Below, in pieces: positions 8,629 through 18,903 of a stretch of 33,815 nucleotides of DNA. The stretch is from positions 1-33,815 of the forward strand of contig JAAYMO010000067.1 in assembly GCA_012521375.1 (NCBI GenBank). Direction: 5' to 3'. The notes below the pieces were generated by a model. The model was given only the letters and a program-made list of their open reading frames with translations, was not told where the DNA came from and searched no databases. Within the stretch, counting starts at the first letter, position 1, and each line of letters begins with the position of its first letter. The DNA is from Clostridiales bacterium. GTDB taxonomy: Bacteria > Bacillota > Clostridia > Lutisporales > Lutisporaceae. Made by a program: the position numbers and the translations under genes.

Positions 8629-8749
8629 GGTCATAATTATTCACTGTAAATTATTTAATAGAATAATGGGACTATGAAATAGGAAAATTAAATTTAGAGA
8701 AAGAAAATTGAAGGGCGAATTCTTCTGGGGAAACAGGAGAGTGAAGCTT

Positions 8750-11822: not shown

Positions 11823-12455
11823 TTGTTCACAAAGTTGAATTATATGATAATTAAACATATAAAAGAGAATAGCTTTTTCTACTTAGGATTTATTTTACTA
11901 TTTTCTGTTGGCATAAGTCTTGGCGCTTATTGGGTAACCAATGTTTCAATTGAAACCAAGGAACTTCTAATAATGTATCTTAATGGCTTTTTTAATTTTG
12001 CTGAGGGAAAAATATTTAATAATTCAGCTATATTTAAAAGCTCATTTATAAACAATATAATTTCAATATTACTATTGTTAATATTTGGTTTTACATATGT
12101 AGGAATAATATTTTCACCTATTTTAACTATTTTTAGAGGTTTCTGTTTTGGTTTTTCAATAGCATTTTTGGTGGAAAGTTTCGGGAGAAAAGGGTTAATA
12201 TTTTCATTAGTATCTTTATTGCCTCATAATATTGTTTTAATCCCAAGTACTATTTTTTTATGTTCAGTTTCTTTGCAATATAGTTTATTTTTGCTAAAAT
12301 CCAGAAATGAAAAAAGATATGAAAATAAAAGACAGAGTTTTATTAATTACATCTTTTCGTTTATATTAGGTATGGTTCTAGTTGTACTCTCAACTGTAAT
12401 AGAATCATATATAACCCCTGTTTTCATTAAAAGCATATCCTCCTTTATACAATAA
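11823..12455 (+). CDS. spoIIM: Stage II sporulation protein M
   Basis: Integral membrane subunit of the SpoIID-SpoIIM-SpoIIP complex, which drives peptidoglycan remodelling during engulfment in the mother cell. About 210 residues with several hydrophobic helices (near SFFYLGFILLFSVGISLGAYW, NNIISILLLLIFGFTYVGII, FRGFCFGFSIAFLVESFG, FIFSFILGMVLVVLST). The FRGFxxGF and LPHN segments fit the SpoIIM/DUF95 fold. I prefer TTG 11823, nine bases after GGGG. ATG 11814 abuts the SD and GTG 11793 has none. The gene lies between nudF and xerD as in B. subtilis, with a sigma-E-like promoter and an SD hairpin upstream. Confidence 0.87.
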   Translation: MFTKLNYMIIKHIKENSFFYLGFILLFSVGISLGAYWVTNVSIETKELLIMYLNGFFNFAEGKIFNNSAIFKSSFINNIISILLLLIFGFTYVGIIFSPILTIFRGFCFGFSIAFLVESFGRKGLIFSLVSLLPHNIVLIPSTIFLCSVSLQYSLFLLKSRNEKRYENKRQSFINYIFSFILGMVLVVLSTVIESYITPVFIKSISSFIQ

Positions 12456-12502
12456 TATTAAAAAGGGAATGTAGTAAATTTTTCATACTATGGAGGATTT
12501 TT

Positions 12503-13466: not shown

Positions 13467-14645
13467 GTGATAAATAGAGTTATAATAATAGTTTTAGATA
13501 GCTTAGGTATAGGCTATTTACCTGATGCCCATAAATATGGCGATGAGGGCAGCAATACATTAGGAAATATTGCGAAAAATTATAAAGATTTTAGAATAGA
13601 TAATATGGTTAAGCTTGGAATTGGTAATATTGAAGGCATGAATGATATCATAGAAAGTATTTGTAATCCTATAGGCGCCTTTGGCAGAGCGGCAGAAGCC
13701 TCTTATGGGAAAGATACAACAACAGGACATTGGGAAATTGCAGGCCTTATTCTATCAAAACCTTTTCCAACTTTTCCAAAGGGCTTCCCTGATGAATTGA
13801 TTGAATCCATAGAAAAATCAATTGGTATGAAAACCATTGGTAACGAAGTTGCTTCAGGTACTGAAATCATTAATAGATTAGGAGATTTACATGTTAAAAC
13901 AGGAATGCCAATTATATATACATCAGCAGATAGTGTTTTACAGATAGCCGTCCATGAAGAAGTGATAGAACTGGAAAAACTTTATGAAATTTGTAAAATA
14001 GTTAGAGAAATAATGACCGGTCCTTACGGCGTTGGAAGAATAATTGCAAGACCTTTTATCGGCAAGTCAGGCCAGTATAAACGGACTGAAAATAGAAAAG
14101 ATTTTTCATTAAAACCTATTGGTAAAACTGTGCTAGATTATATAAAAGAAGAAGGTTTGGATGTAATAGCTATAGGCAAAATAGAAGATATATTTGCTTC
14201 TCAAGGTATTACCATTTCTGTTCATACAAAAGATAATATGGATGGTGTAGAAAAAACTATAGAATTTATAAAAAGTGAAAATAATGGTTTGATATTTACT
14301 AATTTAGTTGATTTTGATATGTTATATGGACATAGAAATGATGTTATTGGATACGGCAATGCTATTATGGAATTTGATAAAAGATTGCCTCAAATAATGG
14401 AGACTATGAAGGATGATGATGTATTAATTATAACTGCAGATCATGGTTGCGATCCTGTAACACCGAGTACAGATCATTCGAGAGAATATATACCTATTTT
14501 AATATATGGTAATAAAATCAAAAGTAATGTTAATCTTGGCACAAGAGATTGTTTCTCTGATATAGGAGCAACAGTATTGGATTTGCTAAATATCCAAGGC
14601 AAAATTGAAGGCATATCATTTAAATCATTAATACTCAGGGAGTGA
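13467..14645 (+). CDS. deoB: Phosphopentomutase
   Basis: Interconverts (deoxy)ribose 1-phosphate and 5-phosphate, linking nucleoside phosphorolysis to the pentose phosphate pathway. The 392 residues belong to the alkaline-phosphatase superfamily: VIIIVLDSLGIGYLPDA at the N-terminus (metal Asp), KDTTTGHWEIAG with the phosphorylated Thr, LVDFDMLYGHRND, and the C-terminal metal motifs ITADHGCDPVTPSTDHSRE. It starts at GTG 13467 with SD ATGGAGGA. It heads a nucleoside-salvage cluster with two pnp genes and pdp whose products (pentose 1-phosphates) are its substrates. Confidence 0.95.
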   Translation: MINRVIIIVLDSLGIGYLPDAHKYGDEGSNTLGNIAKNYKDFRIDNMVKLGIGNIEGMNDIIESICNPIGAFGRAAEASYGKDTTTGHWEIAGLILSKPFPTFPKGFPDELIESIEKSIGMKTIGNEVASGTEIINRLGDLHVKTGMPIIYTSADSVLQIAVHEEVIELEKLYEICKIVREIMTGPYGVGRIIARPFIGKSGQYKRTENRKDFSLKPIGKTVLDYIKEEGLDVIAIGKIEDIFASQGITISVHTKDNMDGVEKTIEFIKSENNGLIFTNLVDFDMLYGHRNDVIGYGNAIMEFDKRLPQIMETMKDDDVLIITADHGCDPVTPSTDHSREYIPILIYGNKIKSNVNLGTRDCFSDIGATVLDLLNIQGKIEGISFKSLILRE

Positions 14646-14651
14646 TTAAGA

Positions 14652-15473
14652 TTGAACAATATAAATGAAATGATTTTAGAAGCTCAAAATTATATTGAAT
14701 CCAAATTGAAAGAAAAACCTGAAATAGGCCTAATATTAGGTTCAGGTTTAGGAGTATTAGGAGATAGGGCTGAAAAAAGAAATATAATAGATTATGTTGG
14801 TATACCCAACTTTCCAATTTCAACTGTAGAAGGACATATGGGAAGGTTTGTATTTGGTGAAATAAGCGGCAGAAAAGTTGCCATCATGCAAGGCAGGTTT
14901 CATTTTTATGAAGGATATGGCATGAAGGAAGTTGTATTTCCCATTTGGGTTATGAGATCTCTTGGTATAAAAAAGTTGATTGTAACAAATGCTTCTGGTG
15001 GAGTAAATATTAATTTTTCACCTGGAGATTTGATGTTGATAACTGATCATATAAATTTTATGGGAACTAATCCGCTTATTGGACCCAATATCTATTCTAT
15101 GGGCGTTAGGTTTCCAGATATGTCAAATGCTTATTCTAGTAGAATGAAAGATTTGATTATAAAGATTTCTAATGAATTAAACATTCCTATAAAATTAGGA
15201 GTATATGCTTCTATGACGGGACCAGCTTATGAAACACCGGCGGAAATAAAGATGCTAAGGATTTTGGGGGCAGACGCCGTAGGAATGTCAACGGTTCCTG
15301 AGGTAATTGCAGCAAATCATGCAGGAATGGAAGTTGTCGGTATATCTTGTATAACTAATATGGCAGCTGGTGTATTGGATAAACCTTTAAGTCATGAAGA
15401 AGTTATTAAGACTGCAGAAGAAGTAAAAGATAAATTTTTAAGATTATTAGTTGAAATTATAAAATACTTTTAA
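14652..15473 (+). CDS. punA: Purine nucleoside phosphorylase 1 (trimeric type)
   Basis: Phosphorolyses purine (deoxy)nucleosides to base and pentose 1-phosphate. The 273 residues show the trimeric PNP fold: LILGSGLGVLGD (phosphate loop), VEGHMGRFVFG, MQGRFHFYEGY, ITNASGGVNINFSPGDLMLI and GADAVGMSTVPEVIAANHAGM. The base-contacting residues are the canonical pair: Glu194 in GPAYETPAE and Asn236 in SCITNMAAG, equivalent to human PNP Glu201 and Asn243, so 6-oxopurine nucleosides (inosine, guanosine) are expected. It starts at TTG 14652 with AGGGAGTG eight bases upstream, seven bases after deoB. Confidence 0.92.
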   Translation: MNNINEMILEAQNYIESKLKEKPEIGLILGSGLGVLGDRAEKRNIIDYVGIPNFPISTVEGHMGRFVFGEISGRKVAIMQGRFHFYEGYGMKEVVFPIWVMRSLGIKKLIVTNASGGVNINFSPGDLMLITDHINFMGTNPLIGPNIYSMGVRFPDMSNAYSSRMKDLIIKISNELNIPIKLGVYASMTGPAYETPAEIKMLRILGADAVGMSTVPEVIAANHAGMEVVGISCITNMAAGVLDKPLSHEEVIKTAEEVKDKFLRLLVEIIKYF

Positions 15474-15485
15474 GGAGGATATAAA

Positions 15486-16322
15486 GTGAATTATATAGAT
15501 AGAATTGATGATGCATATGATTATATAAAAAAACTATTACCTTCTAAACCCCAAATCGGAATTATATTAGGTACAGGTTTAGGTACATTGGCAGATTATA
15601 TAGAAAATAGAATAATAATAGACTACAAAGATATTCCTCAATTTCCTGTATCTACCGTTGAAGGCCATGCAGGTCGATTCATTTTTGGTGATTTAGAAGG
15701 CAAAAAGGTTTTGGCTATGCAGGGTCGTTTTCATTATTATGAAGGTTATTCCATGAAAGAAGTGACTTTACCTGTAAGAGTCATGAAAAAAATAGGCATT
15801 GATATCCTTATTATAACCAATGCTTGTGGTGGATTAAATGATGCCTTTTCTCCTGGAGAATTGATGCTGATAAAAGACCATATAAACTTAATGGGAGACA
15901 ACCCATTGATTGGTCCGAATCTATCAGAATTTGGACCTAGATTTCCTGACATGTCTCAAGTCTATAATCCTGAGCTTATTGAGATATGTAAAACTGTGGC
16001 TTCAAGACTAAATATTACTATTCGTGAAGGGGTATATGCTGCAATAAGCGGTCCTTATTACCAATCAAAAGCTGAGTTAAGAATGCTTATCAAGATAGGT
16101 GCCGATGCTGTAGGAATGTCTACAATTCCTGAAGCTATTGTAGCTAGACACTGCAATATAAAAGTTTTAGGACTATCTTGTATAACCGATATGGCTTTAC
16201 CGGACACCTTGGTTTCTTTAACTCATGAAGAAGTCCTTAGAGTAGCCGAATTAACTAAACCTAGATTTATCAATCTTTTAAAGCAGTTTATAAAAGAGGT
16301 GGGGTTTAATGAGGGCTTATGA
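15486..16322 (+). CDS. Purine nucleoside phosphorylase 2 (divergent paralogue)
   Basis: Tandem paralogue of the preceding gene (278 residues) with the same fold and phosphate-binding motifs: LGTGLGTLADY, VEGHAGRFIFG, MQGRFHYYEGY, ITNACGGLNDAFSPGELMLI and GADAVGMSTIPEAIVARH. The base-binding residues differ: GPYYQSKAE has Gln193 in place of Glu, and SCITDMAL has Asp235 in place of Asn. Asp at this position is found in methylthioadenosine phosphorylase, and in PNP variants it favours 6-aminopurines, so adenosine-type or methylthioadenosine-type substrates are plausible. This is inference. GTG start with strong SD TAAGGAGG; the 3' end overlaps pdp by 14 bases. Confidence 0.88.
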   Translation: MNYIDRIDDAYDYIKKLLPSKPQIGIILGTGLGTLADYIENRIIIDYKDIPQFPVSTVEGHAGRFIFGDLEGKKVLAMQGRFHYYEGYSMKEVTLPVRVMKKIGIDILIITNACGGLNDAFSPGELMLIKDHINLMGDNPLIGPNLSEFGPRFPDMSQVYNPELIEICKTVASRLNITIREGVYAAISGPYYQSKAELRMLIKIGADAVGMSTIPEAIVARHCNIKVLGLSCITDMALPDTLVSLTHEEVLRVAELTKPRFINLLKQFIKEVGFNEGL

Positions 16323-17610
16323 TATAATTCTAAAAAAGAGAAACGGATATGAATTGACGAAAGAAGAAATTGATTTTTTTATTGAAGGAATAATGGATGG
16401 AAGCATTCAAGATTATCAAGCATCTGCTTTATTGATGGCAATATATTTTAATGGATTAACCAATAAAGAAACATCACTGTTAACTATGGCTTTAGTAAAC
16501 TCAGGGGAAATATTAGATCTTTCTTCTATCAATGGTATAAAAGTAGATAAGCATTCAACAGGAGGCGTAGGAGATAAGATAAGCTTGATAGTTATACCTT
16601 TGGTTGCATCTGCTGGTGTACCTGTTGCTAAGATTTCAGGTAGGGGATTAGGCCATACTGGAGGTACAGTAGATAAGCTTGAAGCAATACCGGGGTTTAG
16701 AACGGATTTAGATAAAGAAACATTTATCAACAACGTAAACAAATATAAGATGGCCATTGTCGGACAAACACATAATCTTACACCAGCAGATAAAAAGCTT
16801 TATTCACTAAGAGATGTTACTGCGACAGTTGATAGTATCCCATTAATCGCAAGTTCCATCATGAGCAAAAAAATAGCTTCAGGAGCAGATTGTATTGTAC
16901 TAGATGTAAAAGTTGGATCTGGGGCTTTTATGAAAAAAATAGATGAAGCAATTCTGCTCGCAGAAACAATGGTGAATATAGGTAAGTCATTGGGCAAAAA
17001 AACCATAGCTATAGTATCAGATATGAATCAACCTCTTGGTTATGAGATAGGAAATAGCAATGAAGTAAGAGAAGCTATAGAAGTATTAAAAGGAAAAGGT
17101 GCAGAAGATGAAATATATATTGCTTTGACTATAGCTTCTTATATGGCAATTTTAGGTGGTGCCTTTAATGATTTTGATAAAGCATTTAAATATATGGAAA
17201 AGGCAATAAAGACAGGTGAAGGACTTAAATATATGAGAAAATTGATAACTATACAAGGTGGAGATCCGAATATTATTGACAATCCAAATATTTTACCTCA
17301 GGCAAAAAATCACATAGAAATAAAATCAGATAAAGATGGATATATAAATTCTATTAATGCAGAGTGTATAGGAGTTGCCGCTATGTTACTTGGTGCGGGA
17401 AGATCTAAGAAAGACGATTTAATAGATTATGGAGCAGGCATAACATTAACGAAAAAAGTTGGAGATAAAGTAAAGAAAGGTGATACCATCAGCATTCTTC
17501 ATACCAATAAAGAAAAGTGGGATGATGTCAAAAGTATTATAAAAGATGCCTTTAATATAGATAAAATTAAAATTAAGCCGTCGAAATATATTTATAAGAT
17601 AATAGATTAA
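16309..17610 (+). CDS. pdp: Pyrimidine-nucleoside phosphorylase
   Basis: Cleaves uridine, thymidine and deoxyuridine with phosphate to give the base and pentose 1-phosphate. The 433 residues contain an N-terminal helical domain (YELTKEEIDFFIEGIMDG, QASALLMAIYFNGL), the signature KHSTGGVGDKISL, ISGRGLGHTGGTVDKLEAIPG and SRDVTATVDSIPLI-like segments (here SLRDVTATVDSIPLIASSIMSKK), and a C-terminal domain with VGDKVKKGDTI resembling a lipoyl-like hammerhead. It starts at ATG 16309 with SD GAGGTGG inside the end of the second PNP gene. No terminator follows before dacF. Confidence 0.95.
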   Translation: MRAYDIILKKRNGYELTKEEIDFFIEGIMDGSIQDYQASALLMAIYFNGLTNKETSLLTMALVNSGEILDLSSINGIKVDKHSTGGVGDKISLIVIPLVASAGVPVAKISGRGLGHTGGTVDKLEAIPGFRTDLDKETFINNVNKYKMAIVGQTHNLTPADKKLYSLRDVTATVDSIPLIASSIMSKKIASGADCIVLDVKVGSGAFMKKIDEAILLAETMVNIGKSLGKKTIAIVSDMNQPLGYEIGNSNEVREAIEVLKGKGAEDEIYIALTIASYMAILGGAFNDFDKAFKYMEKAIKTGEGLKYMRKLITIQGGDPNIIDNPNILPQAKNHIEIKSDKDGYINSINAECIGVAAMLLGAGRSKKDDLIDYGAGITLTKKVGDKVKKGDTISILHTNKEKWDDVKSIIKDAFNIDKIKIKPSKYIYKIID

Positions 17611-17633: not shown

Positions 17634-17662
17634 GAATAACAATCCTCCTAAAGGGAATTATA
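17634..17662 (+). promoter_or_regulatory. Forespore (sigma-G-like) promoter of dacF
   Basis: GAATA at 17634-17638 matches the sigma-G -35 GHATR. AATTATA at 17656-17662 matches the -10 CATnMTA at six of seven positions. The gap is 17 bases. In B. subtilis dacF is transcribed in the forespore by sigma-F and sigma-G. The predicted start, near 17669, falls within the loop of the SD-masking hairpin at 17641-17687. Confidence 0.45.
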
Positions 17663-17687
17663 AAAATAAAATAACTATAGGAGGATT
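17641..17687 (+). promoter_or_regulatory. SD-masking hairpin upstream of dacF
   Basis: AATCCTCCTA (17641-17650) is a perfect 10-base complement of TAGGAGGATT (17678-17687), which is the whole SD of dacF (ATG at 17693). The loop is 27 bases and there is no T tract. In mRNA continuing from pdp the SD would be buried. A transcript beginning at the sigma-G-like promoter would lack the 5' arm and leave the SD free. Confidence 0.75.
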
Positions 17688-17692
17688 CTTTA

Positions 17693-18859
17693 ATGGGAAA
17701 GATGAGGAGAAAGATATATAGTATAATATTAATTTTGGCTATTATGACCATAAACTTGCTTGTTTTAGTTAATAGTGATAATGAAATATCATTAAATTGT
17801 AAATCGGCACTGCTTATGGAAGCATCATCAGGGACAATAATATATGAAATGAATTCTCATGAAAAATTAGAACCTGCTAGCGTTACTAAAATAATGACTA
17901 TGTTACTTACTATGGAAGCATTACAATCTGGAAGGATTACATTAGAAGATAAGGTGATTATTAGTAACAAAGCAAGTAAAATGACCGGAACTTGTTTATT
18001 GTTAGAAGAAGGAGAAGTTAGAACAGTCAATGATTTATTGTTAGGAATTGCAGTTGAATCAGCAAATGATGCGAGTGTAGCTATAGCAGAGCATATTGCA
18101 GGAAGCGAAGAAGAGTTTGTAAAAATGATGAACAATAAAGCAAAAGAATTAGGAATGAGTGACACGGTTTTTATGAATTGTCATGGTCTTCATGATGAAG
18201 GACATGTTACTTCTGCTCATGATATTGGAATAATGTCAAGGGAATTGTTAAAACATGAAAAGATTTTCGATTATATATCAATATATATGACTAAAGTAAC
18301 TGTAGGAAAGAAGAATAATGTAGTAAGAGAATTGGCCAACAAAAATAAGATGGTTAGATTTTACGATGATGTGGATGGCATAAAAACAGGGTATACAGAA
18401 AAGGCAATGTATTGTATATCAGTAACTGCAAAAAGAAATAATATGAGATTAATAAGTGTTATTATGGGCGCTCCAAGTACTGGTTCAAGAAATAATGACG
18501 CAAGAAAACTATTGGATTATGGTTTTGCTAACTTTTCTACATATTCAATTGGTAAAAAAGGAGATATTATAAAAACTATAAAAGTTTCAAAAGGGAATAA
18601 GGATAAAATAAATGTTATTCTCGATAATGATATTAATGTACTAGTAAAAAAGGGAGAGGAAAAACAGATTGAACGAAAATTAATTTTGCCCGATAAATTG
18701 TCAGCCCCTATATTTAAAGGAGATAAACTTGGCGAAATAGAGGTTTTGAAAGATGGTGAAAAAATACAAAGCATATCTCTGATTGCTCAAGAAGATGTTG
18801 CAAAAGCTACTTTTCTCAATAATATATATAAAGCTATAAGATATTGGATTGATAATTAA
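17693..18859 (+). CDS. dacF: D-alanyl-D-alanine carboxypeptidase (DacF-type)
   Basis: Penicillin-binding protein of family S11 that removes the terminal D-Ala of peptidoglycan stem peptides; in B. subtilis DacF acts in the forespore to adjust cortex cross-linking. The 388 residues include an N-terminal signal/anchor (residues 5-26, hydrophobic) and the three penicillin-binding motifs: Ser63-V-T-Lys66, Ser123-A-N and Lys231-T-G. A C-terminal beta domain and an amphipathic tail follow. It lies directly after the nucleoside genes, as in B. subtilis, and the leader carries an SD-masking hairpin with a sporulation-type promoter inside. The sporulation role is inferred from position and leader. Confidence 0.9.
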   Translation: MGKMRRKIYSIILILAIMTINLLVLVNSDNEISLNCKSALLMEASSGTIIYEMNSHEKLEPASVTKIMTMLLTMEALQSGRITLEDKVIISNKASKMTGTCLLLEEGEVRTVNDLLLGIAVESANDASVAIAEHIAGSEEEFVKMMNNKAKELGMSDTVFMNCHGLHDEGHVTSAHDIGIMSRELLKHEKIFDYISIYMTKVTVGKKNNVVRELANKNKMVRFYDDVDGIKTGYTEKAMYCISVTAKRNNMRLISVIMGAPSTGSRNNDARKLLDYGFANFSTYSIGKKGDIIKTIKVSKGNKDKINVILDNDINVLVKKGEEKQIERKLILPDKLSAPIFKGDKLGEIEVLKDGEKIQSISLIAQEDVAKATFLNNIYKAIRYWIDN

Positions 18860-18871
18860 GATTTAATCTTT

Positions 18872-18903
18872 AAAAGTAATGTCTCTGGCATTACTTTTTT
18901 TAT
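18872..18903 (+). terminator. Terminator after dacF
   Basis: Perfect 10-base stem (18872-18881 with 18889-18898), seven-base loop, then a T-rich run. It closes the nucleoside/dacF cluster. Confidence 0.85.

Follow-up and report, generated by a model that had tools for sequence, protein, structure and literature searches.

A candidate promoter-dependent translational insulator in the dacF leader of a Lutispora-like bacterium

Sporulation genes are often found within vegetative operons or downstream of them, a position in which they have to be kept silent without a terminator. How this may be done is a question raised by the dacF locus described here, which lies in a 33,815-nucleotide stretch of DNA (the window) from a Lutispora-like genome of the same genus as G001. 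A deoB-like gene, two purine nucleoside phosphorylase genes (punA) and pdp occupy positions 13467..17610 on the forward strand, recognised from their ORFs, from Pfam matches (Metalloenzyme, PNP_UDP_1 twice, Glycos_transf_3/PYNP_C) and from NCBIfam, which identifies the pdp product as a pyrimidine-nucleoside phosphorylase. They are followed on the same strand by the spore-wall gene dacF (17693..18859), an ORF with Pfam Peptidase_S11 and PBP5_C matches that encodes a serine D-Ala-D-Ala carboxypeptidase of 388 amino acids, its ATG start codon at 17693 being separated from the pdp stop at 17610 by an intergenic gap of 82 bases. A terminator scan finds an intrinsic-terminator-like hairpin 3' of dacF (18872..18898, forward strand) and no terminator-like site on that strand between 17610 and 17693, in agreement with the original prediction that pdp and dacF are not so separated. 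The vegetative nucleoside-salvage genes deoB-punA-punA-pdp are the presumed source of read-through into dacF.

Here, we propose from sequence and folding predictions that the dacF leader is likely to act as a promoter-dependent translational insulator, by which read-through mRNA would be silenced and sporulation mRNA left free. Read-through from deoB-punA-punA-pdp would yield an mRNA with both arms of an inverted repeat, the upstream arm of which would pair with the dacF Shine-Dalgarno sequence (SD) and block ribosome loading. During sporulation, forespore sigma F and/or sigma G would initiate downstream of a promoter whose spacer is that same arm, and the resulting mRNA, without the arm, would be translated into DacF. 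Such a layout would provide cell-type-specific translation and take up little sequence, since promoter spacer and RNA mask are one and the same short stretch.

The inverted repeat and the promoter around it

The masking (anti-SD) arm, AATCCTCCTA (17641..17650, forward strand), and the sequestered arm, TAGGAGGATT (17678..17687, forward strand), which holds the dacF SD AGGAGG at 17679-17684, are exact reverse complements over 10 bp, as had been claimed down to the coordinates and letters. Without gaps the repeat extends to 17638-17653 and 17675-17690 with 88% complementarity, its 10-bp arms lying 27 bases apart. The pattern TCCTCC-N18-48-GGAGGA occurs at two places in the window against 0.03 expected per shuffled window, the second (12438-12497) being without a good gene start. 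That second repeat lies in the stretch from the end of spoIIM to xerD, and its GGAGGA precedes only a 4-codon ORF. Genome-wide, where the tests were pattern searches plus a few stretches only, TCCTCC-N18-48-GGAGGA was found at eight places, mostly within coding sequence, and CCTCC-GGAGG at 31 places compared with 23 for a reversed control pattern, so mild an enrichment that the pattern by itself proves little. A search of Rfam returned no match above gathering score, the sole hit being sraA (23.3 bits, where the gathering score is 56), which lies outside the element.

The arm is embedded in a putative sporulation promoter with the layout GAATAAC-N12-GGGAATTATAA, where GAATAAC (17634..17640) forms the -35 element and GGGAATTATAA (17653..17663) the -10 region, both on the forward strand, and the arm sits between them. 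From the position of the -10 region we infer a transcription start at 17668..17671 (forward strand), within the loop; as the arm is upstream of the -10 region, transcripts from the dacF promoter cannot contain it, whatever their exact start. The sequence thus has the makings of a stage-specific promoter whose transcript omits the 5' strand, and the earlier placement of the predicted start downstream of the masking arm is in keeping with this. The same prediction had called this a sigma-G-like promoter, with GAATA (17634-17638), 17 bases and AATTATA (17656-17662); these elements are present, but an assignment to sigma G only is less apt than a dual sigma F/G promoter or one of sigma-F type, with GG upstream; these readings fit the sequence best because sigma F promoters in Clostridioides difficile are distinguished by a conserved G on the upstream side of the -10, and sigma G promoters by an A on its downstream side (PMC3789822). 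In C. difficile, dacF is a forespore gene dependent on both these sigma factors. When the genome was searched for sigma-F-type promoters of this kind, it gave 26 matches, not above a reversed control, and among them dacF alone had an SD-matched spacer when read by eye.

Folding of both transcript forms, which had been suggested as a check, is consistent with masking in the long form. The minimum-energy fold of a 121-base leader (-19.2 kcal/mol, z = -2.1) and that of a 92-base leader (-15.6 kcal/mol) both have the two arms paired, and the SD is thereby predicted to pair with upstream sequence in the long transcript. The computed mean unpaired probability of the SD is 0.00 in the long transcript and 0.98 in the predicted short one, with opening energies of 9.7 and 2.4 kcal/mol, respectively. 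Among the window genes tested, none equals dacF in SD opening energy (11.3 kcal/mol) or in the strength of its upstream-SD duplex (-16.4).

Conservation and covariation in the dacF family

The promoter is kept in all 18 members of the dacF family, each leader having GNATAAC (17634-17640 in the window), 12-13 bases and a -10 region resembling GGG.AA.ATA (17653-17662), with G009 lacking the GGG. A spacer-SD/start duplex of -12.8 kcal/mol or below is predicted in 17 of the 18. The exception, G014, has a duplex of only -2.6 and, between pdp and dacF, a 19-bp terminator hairpin that ends in a T tail. Two further members (G007 and G015) hold a good arm despite a terminator-like hairpin, judged by eye, before dacF, so the two devices do not strictly exclude each other. 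In several relatives the -35 bases ATAAC also pair with GTTAT at the start codon, and in G005 the -35/spacer and SD/start regions form 17 consecutive pairs.

The original prediction had proposed looking for compensatory changes in related genomes, and these were found with arm and promoter conserved. In alignment A1, a 12-pair stem has 85% standard cells and six two-sided compensatory cells, compared with 42-55% standard cells for slid versions of the stem, and its covariation score was reached in none of 500 shuffles. Compensatory pairs include CCTCCTGC/GCAGGAGG in G007 and AATCCTCCC/GGGAGGATT in G009, and G-U changes also occur in the family stems. A within-family SD swap test gave p=0.28 for all members and p=0.04 outside the genus, a weak test because the SD hardly varies.

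Might the hairpin mainly terminate or attenuate read-through transcription, the SD forming its 3' strand and the T-rich gap between SD and start its U tract, with masking as a secondary effect? Runs of T directly after the stem in some relatives (GGAGGGTTTTTTC in G011, GGAGGGTTTTT in G003) would suit this, as would dacF leaders of other clades (L195, L200, L227) in which a terminator-like hairpin with a short loop has the SD for its 3' strand. The window itself, on the other hand, has a loop of 27 nt between arms that are followed by CTTTAATG, does not present the short-loop, GC-rich hairpin plus U tract of an intrinsic terminator and gives no call in the terminator scan, and we regard termination as an unlikely main role. 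The dacF SD of L244, another distant leader, likewise overlaps a terminator-like hairpin: as in L195, L200 and L227, it supplies the 3' strand of a hairpin that has a short loop and T-rich sequence behind it.

Precedents in phage T4 and Bacillus subtilis

The switch proposed for dacF has well-known relatives in phage T4, where the long early transcripts of gene e (lysozyme), I-TevI, soc and 49 hide the ribosome-binding site (RBS) in a hairpin, and late transcripts, from a late promoter located there, begin inside the 5'-strand region and are translated (PMC3014915, PMC2988022). In both systems a hairpin hides, or at dacF is predicted to hide, the RBS of the long transcript and the promoter lies inside the 5'-strand region; the T4 cases involve phage late promoters and are experimentally shown, whereas dacF involves sporulation sigma factors and is predicted.

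A second precedent, named in the original prediction and found to be real, is sigG of B. subtilis, for which earlier work cited in PMC5942855 describes a read-through hairpin proposed to block translation that cannot form in mRNA from the gene's own promoter. There, sigG is a sporulation gene ending an upstream unit (spoIIGA-sigE), as dacF does behind pdp, but its hairpin spans 20 or more base pairs, compared with an arm of about 10 bp inside the -35/-10 spacer, and its upstream operon is itself sporulation-specific, whereas the genes upstream of dacF are vegetative. Unlike B. subtilis sigG, the family's own sigG leaders, read by eye, have no comparable consistent arm, and its spoIIR and gpr leaders, read likewise, have no consistent one. 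Also in B. subtilis sigG, a short RBS hairpin hides the SD by upstream pairing and lowers translation (PMC5942855); this resembles dacF in the masking of the SD and differs in that it forms in, and damps, the own-promoter mRNA, which at dacF would be without the arm. A search of open-licence papers found no report of such a leader at dacF, in line with the original prediction.

Recurrence in other clades and other sporulation genes

Beyond the family, the arm recurs in some clades. A helix score of at least 22 is reached by 11 of 18 family dacF leaders, 6 of 69 other dacF leaders and 1 of 119 other genes, and SD opening against dinucleotide-shuffled upstream sequence gives p<=0.05 in 13/18 family members, 20/86 from other families and 10/110 controls (a random subset), the remaining five family leaders not being above shuffles. 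In 93 dacF leaders with a recognisable promoter from 38 clades, compared without phylogenetic weighting, spacers pair better with their own SD than with swapped ones (6.84 against 5.73, sd 0.26; permutation p=2e-4, also without the Lutispora-like 18-member family), and outside that family 18 of 75 leaders reach -10 kcal/mol or below compared with 10.8% of swapped pairs, figures that are exploratory because it was only after reading the leaders that we fixed, by hand, the promoter threshold (score 6), the named clades to be added and the -10 kcal/mol cut. The genomes include many fragmented assemblies, terminators were called heuristically and start codons were picked automatically, with the distant leaders L189, L193, L220 and L230 probably mis-started. 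Strong arms outside the family occur in f36 (ATAACATCCC/GGGATGTTAT), f37, f16, f41, f49, f4 and the Oscillospiraceae MAG L106; the arm lies just upstream of the -35 instead in L022, L174, L044, L046 and L060, and is absent from the dacF leaders of Clostridium-like f40, f7 and most of f21 and f22.

A second gene with this layout came from the genome pattern search, an M23-peptidase gene between minE and a site-2-protease-like gene, the arrangement expected of spoIVFA-spoIVFB and hence termed spoIVFA-like. In all five Lutispora leaders, GNATATTT or GCATAATT is followed by CATATATATT, in what reads, by the sigma-E consensus, like a sigma-E promoter, and TTATCCTCC in the spacer pairs with GGAGGATAA; predicted duplexes range from -16 to -20 and SD opening energies from 10.6 to 13.1 kcal/mol (5/5). 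These are L306 (G000:C238, minus strand, just upstream of 12765) and L307-L310, with TATCCTCC in the spacer complementary to the gene's SD. The scan found no terminator before the Lutispora spoIVFA-like genes; in other genera six leaders carry a called terminator and the others gave no call, and duplexes there are weaker, L312 and L313 reaching about -14.

The layout is seen a third time at spoVT, which follows mfd and a peptidyl-prolyl-isomerase-like gene: a spacer with CCTCC or ACCCTC in a GTATAA/GCATAA-type promoter is present in all five Lutispora and in G011 (L359 at G000:C117, 14450-14560, and L360, L361, L363, L365 and L375). Duplexes in these six are -14 to -16; in the leaders compared from other genera the arm is absent and values are -0.5 to -3.8. 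The genome that the window comes from has an imperfect spoVT match, with a modest predicted SD opening (3.5). Like dacF, both spoIVFA and spoVT lie behind vegetative genes; as it was pattern searches that drew attention to them, their enrichment does not amount to a formal test.

These comparisons bear on two further explanations. The complementarity could be chance, or an inherited pyrimidine-rich spacer without function, and the high conservation inside the genus (which makes members non-independent), the five leaders no better than shuffles and the 31 against 23 genome-wide places lean that way; the cross-clade swap test, the single such helix among 119 control genes, the compensatory changes in the family stem and the layout shared by three sporulation genes make it quite improbable. 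The repeat could instead act at the DNA level, as the operator of some factor that regulates the sporulation promoter, its match to the SD a by-product, since it overlaps the promoter and is conserved together with it. We give this very little credence, as the arms are far apart, covariation across clades tracks each gene's own SD flanks, and spoIVFA and spoVT have the same layout with different sequences and different promoter types.

A promoter-dependent translation switch, as originally proposed, is the best-supported reading, given predicted accessibility, covariation and recurrence across clades and in two further genes. The mechanism itself has known precedents in T4 gene e/I-TevI and in B. 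subtilis sigG, and judging by sequence it appears to gain new members in dacF, spoIVFA and spoVT; the dacF case is of note because it recurs in dacF across clades and reaches other sporulation genes. More tentatively, spore formers may have repeatedly placed an SD complement in the sporulation-promoter spacer of genes ending vegetative operons, with promoters for several different sigma factors (F/G at dacF and spoVT, E at spoIVFA), as a general, evolvable insulation replacing terminators, a possibility to which we lean rather less than halfway. Were it general, read-through RNA over dacF, spoIVFA or spoVT in transcriptomes would not imply protein. L. thermophila, a cultured species whose strain DSM 19022 has a 12-bp arm, lends itself to a direct test.

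Leader hairpins of other kinds were also seen at sporulation-related genes. In L343 (G000:C138, minus strand), a long, imperfect hairpin in the leader encloses the SD of a gene that by eye resembles the CotF family of coat proteins. In the window, a short hairpin at 8719-8742, ATTCTTCTG-GGGAAA-CAGGAGAGT, covers the likely spoIVB SD, with an SD opening energy of about 10 kcal/mol, and the same hairpin is present in most spoIVB leaders of the family.
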